DNA of 63,533 bases from IMG/VR virus record IMGVR_UViG_3300010157_000065, positions 1 through 63,533 of that record. One strand, given 5' to 3'. The translations under genes were made by a program, and so were the position numbers. The notes under the pieces were generated by a model. It did not search any database. It was not told where the DNA came from and was given only the letters and a program-made list of their open reading frames with translations. The stretch is from a virus. Of this stretch, positions 935 through 45,993 are shown piece by piece (the first letter of the stretch is position 1; every line of letters starts with the position of its first letter).

Positions 935-3900
935 TTAAGGACAATTCCCAACTTTAACTACATTTATTGTAGGCTCTATTATTGTTCTAGCGCAGAAGAA
1001 ATCTTCCACATAACCTGAAGTTCCATCTACACTTATTGATTGTACATTATTTGAAGTATCTACATATAGACAAGAATTAACACCTTCGCTACTATATATT
1101 TTATATTGCTTGTAGTATGCTTGATTACAACTTCCTAAATCTGTAATTGTTGCAGAAGGAGTTGAACTAGGTATTATAGAAGTTCCACAAAAGTTAGATG
1201 TAGATAATGCTAGAGTTAAAGACCTAAAAGATTTAATCCCATCACAATCTATATAGTCTATGGTTTCTACTTGATCTGGGTCTCCATAATCTACCCAATT
1301 TGCTCTAAAACTTCTACAGTCTACAAAGTCTCTCATATTTATATCGACTCTTATTAATTCAGAGCAACTTCCACTAGCTACAATATATTCAAAATAGTCA
1401 GGTAGATAATCATTGCCAGTGCTTAGGTAAGTAATAAGGTCTCCTATAACTTCAACTTCTCCAAGAGGAGGATATGTATCAATAGTTATAGTATATGGTG
1501 AGTTTACAAAAATATTATCTAACGCATTGAAGGTAAAACTTTCTTTTTGATTTATGTAATATAATTTGTTTTTAATGGTTGCATACACATCATCTATGTA
1601 ATCCCATACAATATATAATTTTGCGTTTAAATCTCCATCTCTATCAAATAGAAACTCAATGTAGTTGTCATCTCCATCTGTTGTTATAGCAGGATAAGAA
1701 GCTCTATCTCTTATTTGTTGAGCATCTAAAATATCTCTAGTTACTATATAACCTATTTTGTTACAAGAAGTAAATACTCCACTTATTTTACTAGAATAAA
1801 CTCTAATTGTAGAACCTTGAAATGGGATACCACCATCGGATTCATTTCCTACAATGGTTTCAAATCTAGTAAGACCAGAAGACTCAAATGTATCATCATT
1901 AGAATATTCCCCACTAAATCCATAAACAGAATCAGTCCAAGTGTATCTATTTCTCATAGACTTGTTGGCATCAGATAAATCATTTACAACTAATGAAACT
2001 ATTTCTAATTGAGGTGTCTCAGGAATAGTATTATATAATGAAATATTAACTACATCAGATAATGAATTGTTTGTGATATTCACTGTAATTATTTCTGCTG
2101 TAGTATTTTTAGTAAAGCTAAAGTTTCCTATTCCAGCCCTAGCTATACCATTATAAGTATCTCCATCAAACAATACTTCTATATCTAAATCATTATCGCA
2201 ATCGTAATCTATTATAAAATCTCCTACTTTTTTACCTGCATTTATTTCATAAGTATATGTATTATTTTTTAATATAGGTAAATTACTTAGTCTTTGATTA
2301 GGTTTAACTCTTGGAATAGCTAAAGTACGAGACTCTCCTGTAATTGAAAAAATATAGTTGTCATAAGAAGGGTCGTAACCTCCAGAGAAAAACTTTCCTT
2401 TATTTATTCTTAAATTATCTCTAAACCAATCTCTCATTCCGTATCTTGAGATAGGCTCTAAGCCATCAGGACCTAATCTTAAAATAGCCCCCCTTCTTTG
2501 GTCTGCAAAATAAATGTTATTAGCAAAATTAGAGAAACTCTCAGGGTCTAATCCTATTCCATATTCTCCAGAGAAAGGAATCTCTTGACCTAAAACATTT
2601 TCAACAGATGTTATTTGACCTCCTCCAACAGCATCAGAAAGTAAGTTTTTATTATAAAGAACTTTATGCACCTTATCTTCTTGAAAAACTATTAAATCCG
2701 TATCCCTTGAAAATATCTTTTGAATGCTTCCGTATTTATCATCTAAGTCTTTATAGTTTGCTCTTGATAGATTAAACTCATTTAAAGAGTTATAAACTGT
2801 GGTTTTATCATAACCTCCACTATAAGTCAAAGAAGATATATTCCTTCTTTCTTTATACTCATCTAATAAAACCGCATTAGGTCTTGTATTTGTAGATAGG
2901 AAGTTTGAAGAGAATAAATCCCTAACTCTATAACTCTCCGCACCATTTCCTTGAGTATAACAATTAAAAAAAGATAGATTTAATTTGGCAGGAGTGCTAG
3001 ACGTTTGGTCTTGGTCTCCATTATCAATTCCATTTGATAAATGATTACCATTAAGGTCTATTAGGTAAGTATCAGGTGTCTCATAGTAAACTTGAGATAC
3101 TTTATCTTTAGGTTCTGTTTCAAATATAAGAAGTTTTGCTGCATTTGTTATTGTTATATTAAACCACATCCTAGAAAAAGTCTGTCCATTACCAGCGTGT
3201 ATTCCATACCCTTCCATATACAATGCCCCATTAGGGTTTGGGGTATAAACAGTATATGGCTGACCAGCAAAATACTGAACTTGAGCAGTAAGTCTTAAAA
3301 AACCATAACCAAAAGGACCTAATCCATTTGCTTCACTTTGAAACCAACTTTGAAAATTAAGGTAATCATCTCCTACCGTATAACTTTTAGAATGAGTAGT
3401 CCGCTCAGCATTATCTCCAACAGCATTAAGAACATATATATCTATCTTACTTCCAGCCGTTATAGGAAAATCTTCATACAATCCAGTTGTTGCATTTAAT
3501 TTACTAAATGATGGAGTTAATCTAACTCCTGGTATTCCGCTAGTTTCACCATCGCTTATTTGTTGAAAATAAAGAGTGTTACTGGCTGAACTTTCGTTAA
3601 TTATTCCTCCAACATCTTTAAGTTTTATATAATTTCCAGCTATTTCAGTAGGTGTTCCCTCGATAAAATTTGAGAGTTGTTGTTTATATTCTAACACTTC
3701 TATCTTCTCTAAAACATCTAAAGGACCGTTTAAGTTTCTTTTAAGAATTAAGAAATCACCTTGCGCTACTTTATTTTTGTCTTGCCCTTCTAGTTTTATC
3801 CATACATTATTTTCTTCCTTATATTGCACAAGTCCATATATGGTTTGATAATCTAGTTTATTATCTTTTACAAAAATTTTATATTTAGTAGCCCAAATAG

Positions 3901-31340: not shown

Positions 31341-31406
31341 TGGTATGTTGCAAGGTGCAAAGGGCAAAATTATTTTGTCTTATGGGTTCGATTCCCATCA
31401 TACCAA
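31341..31406 (+). tRNA. Degenerate tRNA-like element
   Basis: The 5' TGGTATG (31341-31347) pairs perfectly with CATACCA (31399-31405) as a 7-bp acceptor stem. ATGGG-TTCGATT-CCCAT (31382-31398) is a canonical T arm joined to it without a gap. The D arm is reduced to TTGC/GCAA (31348-31360). An anticodon-like stem, GGCAA/TTGTC, has the 7-base loop AATTATT, which lacks the usual U33. The total of 66 bases is short for a tRNA. No CCA is encoded. It is either a decayed tRNA or a tRNA mimic; a functional tRNA seems unlikely. Confidence 0.4.
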
Positions 31407-32060: not shown

Positions 32061-32068
32061 TATATTTG
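32061..32068 (+). promoter_or_regulatory. -7 box TATATTTG of kissing-loop RNA 1
   Basis: TATATTTG followed by CA lies at the stop of the preceding gene and a few bases before the first hairpin of the small RNA, so the RNA would start at about 32072-32074. Confidence 0.65.
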
Positions 32069-32071
32069 CAG

Positions 32072-32156
32072 TGAGCAATCCACTACTTGCTGCATACTTA
32101 TTTATAAAAACATATACAAACCCTTATTGAGTGTAGTGGCTCAGTAGGGGTTTTGT
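32072..32156 (+). ncRNA. Kissing-loop small RNA 1, upstream of a GIY-YIG nuclease
   Basis: This short unit has a 5' hairpin, AGCAA (32074-32078) with TTGCT (32087-32091), whose 8-base loop contains CCACTAC (32080-32086). An A/T-rich linker follows, then a terminator hairpin whose 8-base loop contains GTAGTGG (32133-32139). The two loop segments are perfect 7-bp complements, so the hairpins can kiss. The RNA would end 10 bases before the start of the GIY-YIG gene. It is either a free small RNA or a leader in which the kiss affects termination. Confidence 0.6.
32119..32156 (+). terminator. Terminator of kissing-loop RNA 1
   Basis: A 13-bp stem (32119-32131 with 32140-32152) that includes two G-U pairs and no mismatch, followed by TTTTG. 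It is located just before the ATG at 32167. Confidence 0.8.
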
Positions 32157-32166
32157 ATTTTAAATT

Positions 32167-32787
32167 ATGATAGGAATATACAAAATAATCAGCCCTAGTA
32201 ATAAAGTGTACATAGGTCAGTCCGTAAACATTAGAAAAAGATTTAATGCTTATAGATATGCTAAATGCAAAGGACAAATAAAACTATATAGATCATTCAT
32301 TAAATATGGCGTAGAAAAACATATTTTTGAAATTATAGAAGAATGTAATATTGAAGAACTAAATAAAAAAGAAAGATATTATCAAGATTTATATAATGCT
32401 ATTTGTCCCAAAAACGGATTAAATTGTTTATTGACCGCAACTGAAACTAAAAGTAAAGTTTTTAGTAAGGAAACTAGAGAAAAAATGTCAATATCAAGAA
32501 CAGGTAAAACTCAAAGTAAGGAAACTAGAGAAAAAGTATCTAAAGCAAATAAAGGTAAATTGTTTAGTAAAGAAACTAGAGAAAAATTATCTATAGCTGC
32601 AAAAGGAAGGATTAGGACAGAAGAACATTTAAAGAATAGATGTAAAATAATATTAGATACAAATAACGGAGTGTTTTACTTCGGATTAAAAGACGCATCT
32701 AAATATTCAGGAATAAATGAGCATACACTGAGAGCTAAATTAAATAATAGATTTGGACCAAACAATACCAGTTTAAGGTATGTATAA
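32167..32787 (+). CDS. GIY-YIG homing endonuclease with NUMOD3 repeats
   Basis: A 206-residue protein. The GIY-YIG domain covers residues 1-90: IGIYKIISPSNKVYIGQSVN is followed by the Arg of NIRKRFNAY and the Glu region IIEECNIEELNKKERYY. Three NUMOD3-type DNA-binding repeats follow (SKETREKMSISRTGKTQ, SKETREKVSKANKGKLF, SKETREKLSIAAKGRIR). A C-terminal helix-turn-helix of NUMOD1 type reads GLKDASKYSGINEHTLRAKL. This is the architecture of I-TevI relatives, which cut a specific site and copy themselves into it. It lies just after the kissing-loop RNA and is otherwise free-standing. Confidence 0.85.
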   Translation: MIGIYKIISPSNKVYIGQSVNIRKRFNAYRYAKCKGQIKLYRSFIKYGVEKHIFEIIEECNIEELNKKERYYQDLYNAICPKNGLNCLLTATETKSKVFSKETREKMSISRTGKTQSKETREKVSKANKGKLFSKETREKLSIAAKGRIRTEEHLKNRCKIILDTNNGVFYFGLKDASKYSGINEHTLRAKLNNRFGPNNTSLRYV

Positions 32788-41155: not shown

Positions 41156-41203
41156 TTTTGATTGTCAAAAGTTATTTATTAGATTTGTCAAAAATAATAT
41201 TCG

Positions 41204-41211
41204 TATCTTTG
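41204..41211 (+). promoter_or_regulatory. -7 box TATCTTTG of kissing-loop RNA 2
   Basis: TATCTTTG followed by CA has TTTG at 41184-41187 in the right range for a -33 element. The RNA would start at about 41215. Confidence 0.65.
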
Positions 41212-41214
41212 CAG

Positions 41215-41327
41215 AGATTAATATGAGGTAAGAGGCATATAATCTAAACGACATAATAAATAAAACACAACTTAAACCTTGTGGCAATGCATCCTCTTAC
41301 TTTAGTGCAAAGCCTCAGGGTTTTTTG
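41215..41327 (+). ncRNA. Kissing-loop small RNA 2, upstream of a T5orf172 nuclease
   Basis: This unit repeats the plan of the RNA at 32.07 kb. A 5' hairpin (41215-41225 with 41236-41245, ten pairs and one bulged A) has a 10-base loop that includes GGTAAGAGG (41227-41235). An A-rich linker follows, then a terminator hairpin with a 12-base loop beginning CCTCTTACT (41293-41301). The loops can form eight Watson-Crick pairs plus one G-U pair. The transcript would end about 18 bases before the start of the GIY-YIG-type gene at 41345. Confidence 0.6.
41274..41326 (+). terminator. Terminator of kissing-loop RNA 2
   Basis: The outer stem AAACCTTGTGGC (41274-41285) pairs with GCCTCAGGGTTT (41312-41323), with one G-U pair and one mismatch. 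An inner TGCA/TGCA stem lies at 41288-41291 and 41306-41309. A run of six T (41321-41326) closes it. Confidence 0.75.
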
Positions 41328-41344
41328 TTACAAATTATTTATGT

Positions 41345-41872
41345 ATGGAAAATACTATCATTGACAACCAATCAAAATGCCTAAGACTTATTGAGCATGA
41401 AAAATCATTATTTTTTTTTAATGGTATTCAATATGAAGAACCTTCTCTTGAAGAATTAAAGAATATAAAAAAATTAATAGAGTCAAATATAAAAAATTAT
41501 GATTCTGTATCTTCAAATATAAAATATTACAACGAATGTATTTACGAAGATTTATTTCCTACTATTAAACGTAAATATATCAATGAACCTAAAAAAACTA
41601 TTAGTGGAATTATATACATATTAAAATGCGAGAGAACAAAACTATATAAAATAGGATTAACCTCTACAAAAATAGATTCAAGACTTAAATCTTTGAAAAC
41701 TGCAAATCCAAGTATAAGTTTAGTTAAATATTATTCAGGAATTACAGATATATATTCTGAAGAAAAAAAATTGCATAATTTATTTGCTGATAAAAGAATA
41801 GATGGAGAATGGTTTGAATTAGATGATTCTGACTTAAATACTATAGACTGGTTTTTTAATATACCTTTTTAA
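41345..41872 (+). CDS. T5orf172-type GIY-YIG nuclease
   Basis: A 175-residue protein. The C-terminal 80 residues (about 95-175) are a T5orf172/MUG113 domain: SGIIYILKCERTKLYKIGLT has the YI-L and YKIG core, SRLKSLKTANPSISLVKYYS follows, and EKKLHNLFADKRIDGEWFEL closes it with the conserved GEWFEL. The N-terminal part is a helical region that may bind DNA or RNA. Such nucleases are common mobile or host-attack genes in phages. Together with the gene at 32167 it is preceded by a kissing-loop RNA. Confidence 0.8.
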   Translation: MENTIIDNQSKCLRLIEHEKSLFFFNGIQYEEPSLEELKNIKKLIESNIKNYDSVSSNIKYYNECIYEDLFPTIKRKYINEPKKTISGIIYILKCERTKLYKIGLTSTKIDSRLKSLKTANPSISLVKYYSGITDIYSEEKKLHNLFADKRIDGEWFELDDSDLNTIDWFFNIPF

Positions 41873-41874
41873 TT

Positions 41875-42765
41875 ATGAGTGGATGGATAAAAATACATAG
41901 AGAAATAAAAAATCATTGGATTTGGAATAATACAGAATACTTTAAATGGTGGATGGATATTTTATTGGAAGCTAATTATCTTCCTAGTAAGGTAGTTATA
42001 AAAGGAACTATTTATGAGTGCGGAAGAGGTGAAAAACTATACTCTTTAGATACTTGGGCAAGTAGATGGAATACCAATAAAAGTAAGGTTAGAAGGTTTT
42101 TAAATCTGTTACAAAATGACTCAATGATAGAGATTAAAAACGAAACGCAAACGACACGTATAACTATCTGTAATTACGATGATTACCAAGATAAAGAAAA
42201 CGCAAGTGAAACGCAAATGAAACGCAAACGAAACGCAAGTGAAACGCATTTGACACCAATTAAAGAAAGAAAAGAAATAAAGAAAGATAATCTTTTAGTA
42301 GAAGTTGATAGAAATGGTCTTGATGATGCCACAAAAACATACTACGATATTGCAATTGGCTTTCAAAGAGTATTTATTCTTAATAAAAAATCTTTAGGAC
42401 TTACTAATTTTGAAGATCAAAATAATGCTACATTTAAAAGTTATGTCGAGCCTATTAGATTAGCATTTGAAAAAGATAAAAGAACCAGAGATGACTTTGC
42501 TAAGATATTTATATTTCTTCAGTCAGATGAGTTTTGGATGAAGAACATTATGTCTACATCTAAACTAAGAGAAAAAATGGGTGATTTATTAATTAAAGCA
42601 TCAAAACTTAAAGCTAAACAAGCTAAACTACCTGATGACTGGTATTCAAGAGAACTAACTACAGAACAACAATCACTACTATCACCTGAGCAATTAAAAA
42701 GATGGAAAGAAAATAAGGTTAGGTTAGGTGTTGAGGGTGGATATTTAAAACCAATAGAAAGATAA
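41875..42765 (+). CDS. Replisome organiser / replication initiator
   Basis: A 296-residue protein with the N-terminal winged-helix module of phage replisome organisers. It begins GWIKIHREIKNHWIWNNTEY and then has TIYECGRGEKLYSLDTWASR followed by SKVRRFLNLLQNDSMIEIKN (about residues 42-86). A Lys-rich linker (ETQMKRKRNASETHLTPIKE) joins it to a helical C-terminal domain. In relatives it loads the helicase at the origin. It sits in the replication gene cluster, two bases after the nuclease gene. Confidence 0.75.
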   Translation: MSGWIKIHREIKNHWIWNNTEYFKWWMDILLEANYLPSKVVIKGTIYECGRGEKLYSLDTWASRWNTNKSKVRRFLNLLQNDSMIEIKNETQTTRITICNYDDYQDKENASETQMKRKRNASETHLTPIKERKEIKKDNLLVEVDRNGLDDATKTYYDIAIGFQRVFILNKKSLGLTNFEDQNNATFKSYVEPIRLAFEKDKRTRDDFAKIFIFLQSDEFWMKNIMSTSKLREKMGDLLIKASKLKAKQAKLPDDWYSRELTTEQQSLLSPEQLKRWKENKVRLGVEGGYLKPIER

Positions 42766-42768
42766 GAT

Positions 42769-43644
42769 ATGAAAAAAGTAATAGCGTGGTGGTCTGGTGG
42801 TATTACATCAGCAGTAACTTGTAAGATATGTATAGATACATACGGAGTTGAAAATGTAAGGGTTATTTTTATTGATACATTCAATGAAGATGAAGATACC
42901 TACAGATTTAAAAAAGATTGTGAGGTTTTATATGGTAAAGAAATAGAGACCATAACATTGATAGGTAAAAAATATAAATCTATTCAAGATGTATGGATAA
43001 AACACAAGTCATTAAACGTAGCTAAAGGTGCTGTATGTTCTTCTGAACTTAAAAGAAGTGTTAGAGAGAAATGGCAAAAGAATAATGAGTATGACCTACA
43101 AGCATTTGGTTTTGAAATAGAAGAGATTAATAGAGCAAAGTCTATGAAGTTAAACCATTCAAAAGCTAAACCTATATTCCCTTTATTGTTATATGGCTAT
43201 TCAAAAAAAGATTGTATTAAAATAATGGAGGACTATGGAGTTCAAGTTCCAAGAATGTATTACTTAGGTTTCCATAATAATAATTGTTTTAACACTGGAT
43301 GCGTTCAGGGAGGTATTGGTTATTGGCAAAAGATAAGAGATGAATATCCTGACAAGTTTAATGCTATGGCAGAGATGGAACATAAACTAACAGAACTTAA
43401 AGGTGAGCCTGTTACTATGCTTAAAGACCAAAGCAATGAAGCAAAACAATCTAAAAATCAGTTAATATTTTTAAAACCACATCCTGATTATCCTGCTATA
43501 AAAGATATATCTATGATTAAAGGTAGAGAAGTTAAACCTTTATTTGAGTGTAATGGTTTCTGTGGTGTAAATGATTTATCAGAGAGAACTGAAACTGAGA
43601 AAGAGATTAATTATGGACAATTAGATATGTTTGGAGATGAGTAA
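42769..43644 (+). CDS. PP-loop ATPase of the PAPS reductase family
   Basis: A 291-residue protein with the PP-loop SGGITSAVTCKI (about residues 9-20), which binds ATP and forms an adenylated intermediate, and a VIFIDTFNEDEDTYRF motif. Later CSSELKRSVREKW and a Cys pair in NNCFNTGCVQGGIGYW may hold a metal or an iron-sulphur cluster. Relatives include sulphate-activating reductases and DndC, which acts in DNA phosphorothioation. The phage branch has no assigned substrate. It lies between the replisome organiser and primase-helicase genes, which hints at DNA or nucleotide modification. Confidence 0.7.
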   Translation: MKKVIAWWSGGITSAVTCKICIDTYGVENVRVIFIDTFNEDEDTYRFKKDCEVLYGKEIETITLIGKKYKSIQDVWIKHKSLNVAKGAVCSSELKRSVREKWQKNNEYDLQAFGFEIEEINRAKSMKLNHSKAKPIFPLLLYGYSKKDCIKIMEDYGVQVPRMYYLGFHNNNCFNTGCVQGGIGYWQKIRDEYPDKFNAMAEMEHKLTELKGEPVTMLKDQSNEAKQSKNQLIFLKPHPDYPAIKDISMIKGREVKPLFECNGFCGVNDLSERTETEKEINYGQLDMFGDE

Positions 43645-45442
43645 TAGTAAAGTAACAGTATTCAAAGACCTCTTCTCTTTAAACACCCCAATGTATGTAG
43701 ACATAGATTATGTCCTACAAAGAATACAAGAGGAAGTATGTAGTGAGTTGGTCAATAAGATTAGACAAGAGAAAGACAAGAGCAGTCGTAACATCCTTAA
43801 AAAGAAGTTGCCTTGTGTGTTATTCTCTGGAGAGTTTAGCAGTAGAGCAGATAACGCCTTAGTTCAGCACAGCGGTTTTATATGCTTAGACTTCGATGGG
43901 TTTGAGGATCAAGAAGTCCTTACATTTTCCAAAGACTATTTAATAAAAGATAAGTACACTTACTCTGTATTTACTTCTCCTAGTGGTGATGGTCTTAAAG
44001 TAATTGTCAAAATACCAGACGACTTTGAAAACCATAGGTCTTACTTCAATGGTCTTAAAGAATACTACAATAGTCCATACTTCGATGAGAGTTGTGTTAA
44101 TGAGAGTAGGATATGTTATATGTCATCTGACAAAGACATCCACATACAGAAAGATAGCGAGGTATTCTCTACTAAAGCAAAACCAAGAGAGTATGTACAG
44201 AAACAAAGTATATCGCATATCGCAATTAAAGATGATGACAGAGTTATCAAAGGTCTTTTAAAGTGGTGGGAAGATAAGTACGGAATGGTAGAAGGGGAAA
44301 GAAACAGAAATGTTTTCATTCTATCTATGGCACTCAATGAGTTTGGTATCTCTGAAATGGAAGCCAAGAGTGTATGTATGCAGTTTGCACATCAAGGTTT
44401 TGACGAGGAAGAAATAAAGGCGTGTGTAGAGAGTGCATATAGAAAATCACATTTGTTTAATACCAAATCATTTACCGATGATGAGAGGTTTGATAACTAC
44501 TCACCTTCATCAGTAGAAACCTATGAAAAGACAAGGGTAAACTTCCATAACATTTATGAGAGTGCATTTGTAGATGTAAAGAAGAAGATAGAGTTCCCTC
44601 CAGTAGCAATAAGTATGGGAACATACAACTACAATGGTAAACAATTCCCTATACCCTTTGGAACATACGGTAACTTCTCTTGCATAGTTGGTGCATCTAA
44701 ATCTAAAAAGACTTTCTTAAAGAGTTTGATTATGGCATCATACATTGGAGGGAACTCTTCTATGTACGCTAGTAGTATTAAAAGCCACAGAGAAAGGGAT
44801 ATGTTTGTAATAGACTTGGATACTGAGCAATCAGCCTGGCACGCACAGAATGTATTTAAAAGGACTATGAAGATGGTAGGGTGTGAAGACTATGAGTTCT
44901 ACAAACCTTTTGCTTTAAGACCATACGACCCTAAGCAAAGACTAGAGTTTATAGAGTGGTTGATTTATGAAAGCGATATGCGTGATAACATTGGTCTTGT
45001 AGGTATAGATGGTCTTGCAGATTTAGTTGATGATTTTAATGATTTAAAGGAGAGTCAGAAAGCTATACAGAAAGTAATGAAGTGGACCGATGACAAACAA
45101 TTTCACCTTACAACTATCCTTCACTCTAACTACGGAAGTGCTAAAGCTGTTGGACATATTGGAAGTAGTATGCTAAAGAAAGCCGAGACAGTTTGCTCAG
45201 TAGTTAATACAGATGGTATTGTTACTGCTACATTTACACATACAAGAGGTTTTCCAATAGAGAGTTTCTCTTATGATGTACAAAAAGAAACTGGTCTACC
45301 TTTTATTATTGGAGACAATTCTTTAGACAATAACTACATACCATCATCGACAAAAAAAGAATTTATTACAGAGGATAAACCCCTCCCATTTATTAACCCA
45401 TCTGATGCGTTTGATAACCCATTAGATAGTATTCCGTTTTAA
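43637..45442 (+). CDS. VirE_N-type primase-helicase
   Basis: About 601 residues from the ATG at 43637 (MSNSKVTVFKDLFSLNTPMY), which overlaps the upstream stop. A TTG at 43631 is the alternative. The N-terminal half is a VirE_N (BT4734-like) domain, with CVLFSGEFSSRADNALVQHS, GFICLDFDGFEDQE and YSVFTSPSGDGLKVIVKIP (about residues 60-150), typical of Bacteroidetes mobile-element primases. The C-terminal half is a RecA-like helicase: FGNFSC-like strand, then VGASKSKKTFLKSLIMASYI (about 350-369), VIDLDTEQSAWHAQNVFKRT and LVGIDGLADLVDDFND. The nucleotide loop GASKSKKT lacks the second Gly of a canonical Walker A. Replication depends on this protein and the host polymerase. Confidence 0.8.
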   Translation: MSNSKVTVFKDLFSLNTPMYVDIDYVLQRIQEEVCSELVNKIRQEKDKSSRNILKKKLPCVLFSGEFSSRADNALVQHSGFICLDFDGFEDQEVLTFSKDYLIKDKYTYSVFTSPSGDGLKVIVKIPDDFENHRSYFNGLKEYYNSPYFDESCVNESRICYMSSDKDIHIQKDSEVFSTKAKPREYVQKQSISHIAIKDDDRVIKGLLKWWEDKYGMVEGERNRNVFILSMALNEFGISEMEAKSVCMQFAHQGFDEEEIKACVESAYRKSHLFNTKSFTDDERFDNYSPSSVETYEKTRVNFHNIYESAFVDVKKKIEFPPVAISMGTYNYNGKQFPIPFGTYGNFSCIVGASKSKKTFLKSLIMASYIGGNSSMYASSIKSHRERDMFVIDLDTEQSAWHAQNVFKRTMKMVGCEDYEFYKPFALRPYDPKQRLEFIEWLIYESDMRDNIGLVGIDGLADLVDDFNDLKESQKAIQKVMKWTDDKQFHLTTILHSNYGSAKAVGHIGSSMLKKAETVCSVVNTDGIVTATFTHTRGFPIESFSYDVQKETGLPFIIGDNSLDNNYIPSSTKKEFITEDKPLPFINPSDAFDNPLDSIPF

Positions 45443-45489: not shown

Positions 45490-45993
45490 ATGTTATTAGA
45501 GAAAAAATGTTTTAAGTGTAATGAAGTAAAAATTATTGATGATTTTTATAAGCATAGTAAAATGAAAGATGGACATTTAAATAAATGTAAAGAATGTTCT
45601 AAAAAAGAAAGTAAAAAAATTTACAGTAAAAATTACTTAGATAAAGAATGGGTTATTAAAGAAAGAAAAAGGTGTGTTGAAAGAAACAAAAGATTAAATT
45701 ATAATAAAAAATATTTTTTAGATTCTTTACTTGATTATTCTAAATATAAAAATGCAAGGAGAAAATATAAGATTTTAAAACCGTATGAAGTACATCATTG
45801 GAATTATAATTTTGGACACGAAGAAGACTTTATTGTTTTAGAATTAAAGGAACATAGAAAAGCGCATACTTTTTTAATTAGAAATAAGGGAGAGTATTTA
45901 TTTAAAGATGAATTTAATAATATTTTAGATACTAAAAAAAAGCATATAGATTACTTGAATAAAAAAGGAATAATAATTTTTAGAGAATTTTAA
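45490..45993 (+). CDS. HNH homing endonuclease
   Basis: A 167-residue protein with an N-terminal zinc ribbon, KKCFKCNEVKIIDDFYKHSK and GHLNKCKECSKKESKK (Cys pairs about residues 7-10 and 35-38), and an HNH nuclease region, YEVHHWNYNFGHEEDFIVLE and KEHRKAHTF (about 100-130), with the two-His core. This is a free-standing homing endonuclease, very A-rich in its codons compared with its neighbours, as expected of a recently inserted mobile gene. It has its own promoter. Confidence 0.8.
   Translation: MLLEKKCFKCNEVKIIDDFYKHSKMKDGHLNKCKECSKKESKKIYSKNYLDKEWVIKERKRCVERNKRLNYNKKYFLDSLLDYSKYKNARRKYKILKPYEVHHWNYNFGHEEDFIVLELKEHRKAHTFLIRNKGEYLFKDEFNNILDTKKKHIDYLNKKGIIIFREF

Follow-up and report, generated by a model that had tools for sequence, protein, structure and literature searches.

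A kissing-loop RNA leader before replication and homing-endonuclease genes of Bacteroidota phages, with a probable role in attenuation

The window analysed here, a complete virus record (63,533 bases) from IMG/VR, encodes two short RNAs in which the loop of a 5' hairpin is complementary to the loop of an intrinsic terminator. In dozens of other phages of Bacteroidota, leaders built on this plan but with different matched loops precede genes for replication or homing endonucleases. Comparison of these sequences suggests that such genes are probably gated by this hitherto undescribed RNA. On balance we take the leader to be an attenuator of phage replication operons that acts in cis through loop kissing and that homing endonucleases have co-opted.

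Two leader RNAs in the window

The second of the two RNAs, RNA 2, has a Bacteroidota-type promoter on the plus strand (41184-41211; assigned by sequence consensus only), with TTTG at 41184-41187 and the -7 box TATCTTTG at 41204-41211. The motif TANNTTTGC is enriched in the window (28 sites versus 15.6 expected), and an identical promoter box was found 3-16 nt upstream of the 5' hairpin loop in homologues. The predicted 5' hairpin (41215-41245, plus strand) has 10 bp and one bulge, and presents the loop AGGTAAGAGG at 41226-41235. The terminator (41274-41326, plus strand) is predicted to fold at about -19 kcal/mol as a stem with symmetric internal loops (hairpin 41274-41323) followed by T6 (41321-41326); its loop CCTCTTACTTTA (41293-41304) contains the partner segment CCTCTTACTT at 41293-41302, located from sequence, fold and a duplex energy of -12.6 kcal/mol. 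Promoter, 10-bp hairpin and terminator all lie where the sequence-only reading had placed them. The eight Watson-Crick pairs and one G-U that it counted between the loops are present, but the tally was slightly low: the pairing covers 10 positions, namely eight contiguous Watson-Crick pairs, then G-U and A-U.

RNA 1 repeats this layout at 32061-32158 on the plus strand with other paired letters, as had been claimed. Its -7 box TATATTTG (32061-32068) is followed by a predicted 5' hairpin (32068-32093) with the kissing segment CCACTAC at 32080-32086, and by a terminator (32114-32158) with the segment GTAGTGG at 32133-32139. The z-score of the fold energy was -5.4 for the whole of RNA 1 and -2.4 for RNA 2. 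The comparison of native loops with shuffled loops of the same composition, which had been proposed as a check, favoured the native loops in both RNAs: an equally good duplex arose in 7 of 5000 shuffles (about 0.1%) for RNA 2 and in 53 of 5000 for RNA 1. Since 7 of 5000 shuffles matched its native duplex, RNA 2 alone is only moderately improbable; the decisive evidence for kissing is comparative.

Both RNAs, described earlier as structures in themselves, are real as such, but their context had been missed: they are not strays but gene-adjoining leaders of a widespread phage element. Directly behind RNA 1 lies a GIY-YIG/NUMOD3 homing endonuclease gene (32167-32787, plus strand; Pfam PF01541 and PF07460). 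Behind RNA 2, with its start codon 24 nt past the T-run, is a candidate free-standing homing endonuclease gene (41345-41872, plus strand) with a MUG113 domain (Pfam PF13455, E 6.6e-12), which we take to be a GIY-YIG-like domain. A protein search of viral contigs returned no close relatives of this endonuclease, and among named phages only partial-length matches were obtained. A replisome organiser/replication protein gene (41875-42765, plus strand; Phage_rep_org_N just below the cut-off) begins 2 nt past the endonuclease stop. Its product is homologous to the replication protein of phage elemoF (52% over 152 aa), and the gene is likely to have been the original first gene behind RNA 2. Two genes further on, in the same operon, a DNA primase/helicase gene (43631-45442, plus strand; PHROG) encodes a protein 55% identical to its counterpart in Flavobacterium phage vB_FspP_elemoF_6-3D.

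Two further features of the window were recorded. A putative HNH-like endonuclease with CxxC motifs (45490-45993, plus strand) has no Pfam match and no evident kissing leader. A tRNA-like sequence (31341-31406, plus strand; 28.3 bits versus the tRNA cut-off of 29, with no call from ARAGORN) sits in a stretch of about 500 nt that has no long open frame.

Leaders before endonuclease genes in other phages

We collected by protein homology 80 viral loci with relatives of the RNA 1 endonuclease, and at many of them a promoter, a 5' hairpin and a terminator with complementary loops stand immediately upstream of the endonuclease gene. A scan of the whole contigs and the window, open to genes of any type, found 394 terminators; the strong kissing cases lay nearly all before GIY-YIG, HNH or MUG113 genes, a DEAD-box helicase gene being the exception. 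Upstream of GIY-YIG genes, 38 terminators had distinct loops, and 24 of these had a complementary stretch of 7 nt or longer no more than 100 nt upstream. Swapping of partners gave a mean of 2.0 and a maximum of 5.4 (1000 permutations); the loci of this set had been chosen by protein homology, not by their loops, and the terminators by fold energy. At further loci the element precedes other genes, among them a replisome organiser (L177) and a Prim-Pol primase (L219).

One 102-kb contig (G019) carries at least eight copies of the element, each before a homing endonuclease gene and each with seven-base loops of its own that match completely. Among eight of them the loop match is 7/7 within a copy and mostly 1-4 between copies; two copies have 6 of 7 loop letters in common, so that cross-talk is not strictly avoided. 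In the same contig, the HNH frame behind one kissing leader (about 3195-3326 of locus L121, minus strand) has an in-frame stop, and this endonuclease is decaying while its leader stays intact. The contig also holds a cluster of 20 tRNA genes (L121, 9652-13188, minus strand).

The proposed checks came out for kissing, but homologues without complementarity, which the sequence-only reading had set against the interaction, were encountered as well. Homologous endonuclease genes lack a kissing leader at L003, L043, L082 and L226, and the leader is therefore common yet not obligatory for endonuclease genes.

Other arrangements were seen around these genes. In Flavobacterium phage FL-1 (L082, 1380-1500) a promoter and a terminator precede a GIY-YIG gene with loops that are not complementary, a natural counter-example. 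At L043 (2900-3010) a TATCTTTG box leads straight into a short terminator, and the GIY-YIG start codon adjoins its T-run; this leader consists of a terminator only and has no kissing loop. Many leaderless GIY-YIG genes, at loci such as L055-L077, have ATATTTAT 5-25 nt upstream of their start, which may be a late-promoter box of the phage. Just past the first gene after the kissing leader of another locus (L181, 655-687) lies a match to the Rfam RNA DUF805b (38.2 bits versus a cut-off of 35.6).

Covariation of the kissing loops

One sub-type of the leader has the conserved core AGUAGAG-N7-CUCGAAA, in which an inner stem GAG/CUC sits atop an AGUA/GAA internal loop; this loop presumably resembles the bulged-G (sarcin-ricin) motif. 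A DNA pattern of this core and a T-run, with N7 left free and hence blind to kissing, was searched against all viral contigs and matched 43 loci, at 41 of which N7 recurred as its exact reverse complement in hairpins no more than 100 nt upstream. The non-redundant set contained 17 different N7 and an exact 7-nt complement in 31 of 33 loci (permuted N7: mean 1.85, maximum 6), and every one of the seven kissing positions was occupied by two to four Watson-Crick pair types. The promoter box was not matched by pattern in all elements (9/31). Retention of complementarity while the letters change had been put forward as the mark of a selected interaction, and both tests uphold this (24 of 38 against 2.0 expected; 31 of 33 against 1.9).

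In the isolated phages elemoF (of Flavobacterium sp. BAL314) and Harreka_1 (of Olleya), the element heads the replication region, where it is intergenic and unannotated. The kissing loops are CTGTGGAGG/CCTCCAC in elemoF and CTGTGGTGG/CCACCAC in Harreka_1, a compensatory difference. When ten elemoF/Harreka-type sequences were aligned, 98% of cells were paired, against 30-51% in slid controls, although the structure was derived from the aligned members themselves, which favours this figure; the kissing helix was 100% paired. Ten pairs were changed on both sides, and none of 500 shuffles supported the structure equally well. At a homologous site in G019, L191, L194 and L196, with flanks 74-89% identical, the loops are GGACCAG, GGACCAG, GTACCAG and GTTGCAG, respectively, each with a matching 5' loop. 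These data make it near certain, as far as comparative analysis can, that the leader structure with its loop-loop kissing is real and not a product of chance.

Distribution and absence from databases

Flavobacterium phage 11b likewise carries an intergenic and unannotated element, counted here among the replication leaders, with kissing loops CGGGCAGG/CCTGCCCG at about 33.7 kb. No clear copy was found in the first 50 kb of Cellulophaga phage phi38:1 or in the first 40 kb of Maribacter phage Panino. The pattern was found in none of 395 host genomes of one Bacteroidota class, and within the sample examined the leader is phage-restricted. An exact-pattern search of viral contigs for the RNA 2 hairpin and a DNA search of named phages with the RNA 2 region both gave no match.

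Rfam 15 covariance models at the gathering threshold gave no match in the window and none at the element in homologous loci. Assignment of the elemoF leader to trpB was rejected, the score being sub-threshold (25.8 of 59 bits) and the aligned stem containing many non-pairs. Among open-licence papers, nothing relevant was found on kissing loops and terminators in Bacteroidetes phages or homing endonucleases; we likewise found in them no description, and in Rfam no family, of an intramolecular contact between a 5'-terminal hairpin and a terminator loop.

Genes behind the leader

Pfam searches of the genes behind the blind pattern set, in which several genes without a Pfam match were classed by eye, identified mostly replication genes (Prim-Pol/DUF3987, DUF6291/Phg_2220_C, HTH_36 and weak DUF7833 matches) or homing endonuclease genes (GIY-YIG, NUMOD4/HNH_3 and HNH). 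Endonuclease VII, RNase H and Bro-N/KilAC were single cases of other kinds.

Related loci differ in what stands between the leader and the replication gene. At L129, whose leader shares 87% identity with the elemoF leader over 157 nt, an HNH gene separates the leader from a replication-type (DUF6291-type) gene; at L244 the leader is followed directly by the homologous gene. Similarly, RNA 2 is followed by the MUG113 gene and then by the replisome organiser gene, and at L177 the leader, with the loops AGGTGAGAGA/TCTCTCAC similar to those of RNA 2, stands before an organiser with no endonuclease between. The two organisers are distantly homologous (28% identical overall). The simplest reading of these comparisons, which are between relatives and not isogenic empty sites, is that different endonucleases have been inserted between the leader and the first gene.

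Proposed mechanism and alternative explanations

Transcription is proposed to begin at the host-type promoter, and the first 30 nt or so would fold as a hairpin. The intrinsic terminator follows about 50 nt on, and the 5' hairpin is expected to dock on its complementary loop through a kissing helix of 6-10 bp (typically 7 bp). In RNA 1, RNA 2 and their equivalents the terminator stands between the promoter and the start codon, and expression from the leader promoter therefore requires read-through. Most transcripts would stop as an RNA of about 110 nt, and a regulated fraction would read through into the gene; the kissing helix may set the speed or firmness of terminator folding. No classical antiterminator was found in the leader, the loop pairing using no strand of the terminator stem. 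In the predicted fold of a nascent RNA that ends before the 3' arm, the loop segments are paired in RNA 2 and unpaired in RNA 1. The leader probably originated as that of a phage replication operon. Endonucleases of several families would have come to lie behind it by insertion before the first replication gene, or by carrying their own copy, and may thereby gain low, timed expression.

The distance from the T-run to the start codon is 7-27 nt in 33 distinct-loop elements, always on the strand of the gene, which favours action in cis. A trans-acting small RNA, in which the transcript of about 110 nt pairs with sister copies or with unrelated transcripts, alone or while doubling as an mRNA by read-through, is a less likely account of the leader. 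A full promoter-to-terminator unit does exist, short and read-through isoforms of a phage RNA are known for IsrK (PMC4825925), and the loop pairs differ for the most part among the eight copies of one phage, matching at 7/7 within a copy and mostly at 1-4 between copies. However, two of those copies are alike in 6 of 7 loop letters, every loop already has its partner within the same molecule, and a free small-RNA gene would not need to lie on the same strand right before a gene; the constant spacing to the start codon led us to downgrade this explanation. The same spacing suits a translational gate: the hairpin, with the 5' end docked on it, would stand close before the start codon and block ribosomes, termination being secondary. 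T4 endonucleases are indeed silenced by hairpins that cover the ribosome-binding site (PMC2988022). The leader hairpin, however, ends upstream of the start codon without pairing with the start region, and in every case it is followed by a T-run, which is terminator anatomy; we regard such a gate as improbable.

That the element heads the replication genes of elemoF, Harreka_1 and many contigs, with fully paired 7-nt loops as in plasmid RNA I/RNA II, would be in keeping with a processed RNA that primes replication or marks an origin, hence its place beside the replisome organiser. But at least eight copies in one phage, each before a homing endonuclease gene, are ill-suited to an origin, and the loop pairing requires no partner from the opposite strand, which makes this explanation very unlikely. 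An ordinary promoter and terminator with loops complementary by chance might be entertained for RNA 2 alone, whose match was equalled by about 0.1% of the letter shuffles, with several candidate sites per genome; for the family, the swapped partners, blind pattern, covariation and alignment exclude chance, and this account is hardly credible. The cis-acting attenuator remains our preferred reading. Transcription of the replication operons may also come from promoters further upstream, and the terminated RNA itself might then be the relevant product. A more speculative extension, which we hold to be rather doubtful, is a self-antisense attenuator: the terminated leader would be both regulator and target, acting in trans on copies of itself that are still being transcribed, with the loop pair as a private specificity, and would couple the replication genes to the copy number of the phage genome, and endonucleases would have captured the unit as a portable expression cassette with loops re-coded in each copy.

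Relation to known regulatory RNAs

Plasmid attenuators of the pT181 type sit just before a replication initiator gene. As in these antisense systems, the leader ties a loop-loop contact between hairpins to an intrinsic terminator (PMC4878617). Their partner is a separate antisense RNA, whereas that of the leader is its own 5' hairpin on the same transcript and strand; unlike in the pT181 type, the contact is made with the terminator loop itself. In the kissing of ColE1 RNA I and RNA II, loops of seven nucleotides are paired over their full length between two RNAs from opposite strands. The leader shares the full-length pairing of seven-base loops, but its kissing is intramolecular. HEARO/OMEGA RNAs are structured RNAs beside the mobile endonuclease gene of IscB-type nucleases; the leader, in contrast, is followed by nucleases of unrelated folds and also by replication genes, which makes it unlikely to serve a single nuclease as guide RNA, and the idea of an RNA-guided nuclease was dropped.

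Homing endonucleases of T4 are restrained by RNA hairpins and terminators (PMC2988022), and in both cases an RNA structure before the endonuclease start codon is thought to limit and time expression. The T4 case has no kissing loop, lacks a dedicated promoter-hairpin-terminator unit common to endonucleases of unrelated families and is not tied to replication operons, and T4-type pairing of the hairpin with the ribosome-binding site or start codon was not found in the leader, whose hairpin ends before the T-run. IsrK of prophage Gifsy-1 (PMC4825925) resembles the leader in that a short terminated transcript and a longer read-through mRNA arise from a single promoter, which in the leader would be expected; the effect of IsrK on its long isoform is exerted in trans, and the abstract describes no internal kissing of a 5' hairpin with the terminator loop. 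We have filed the leader as a variant of the attenuator kind, outside any named family.

Significance

Cultured hosts are available for elemoF (Flavobacterium sp. BAL314) and Harreka_1 (Olleya), and the mechanism is therefore directly testable. The many natural seven-base kissing pairs on terminators offer a test bed for the effect of loop contact on intrinsic termination, and kissing terminators are a possible part for RNA circuits. The covariation is strong enough for the structure to be accepted without experiment. If this reading is right, the leader represents an undescribed RNA class of Bacteroidota phages, absent from Rfam and left unannotated in isolated phages, and would place unrelated homing endonucleases under one expression system linked to phage DNA replication.
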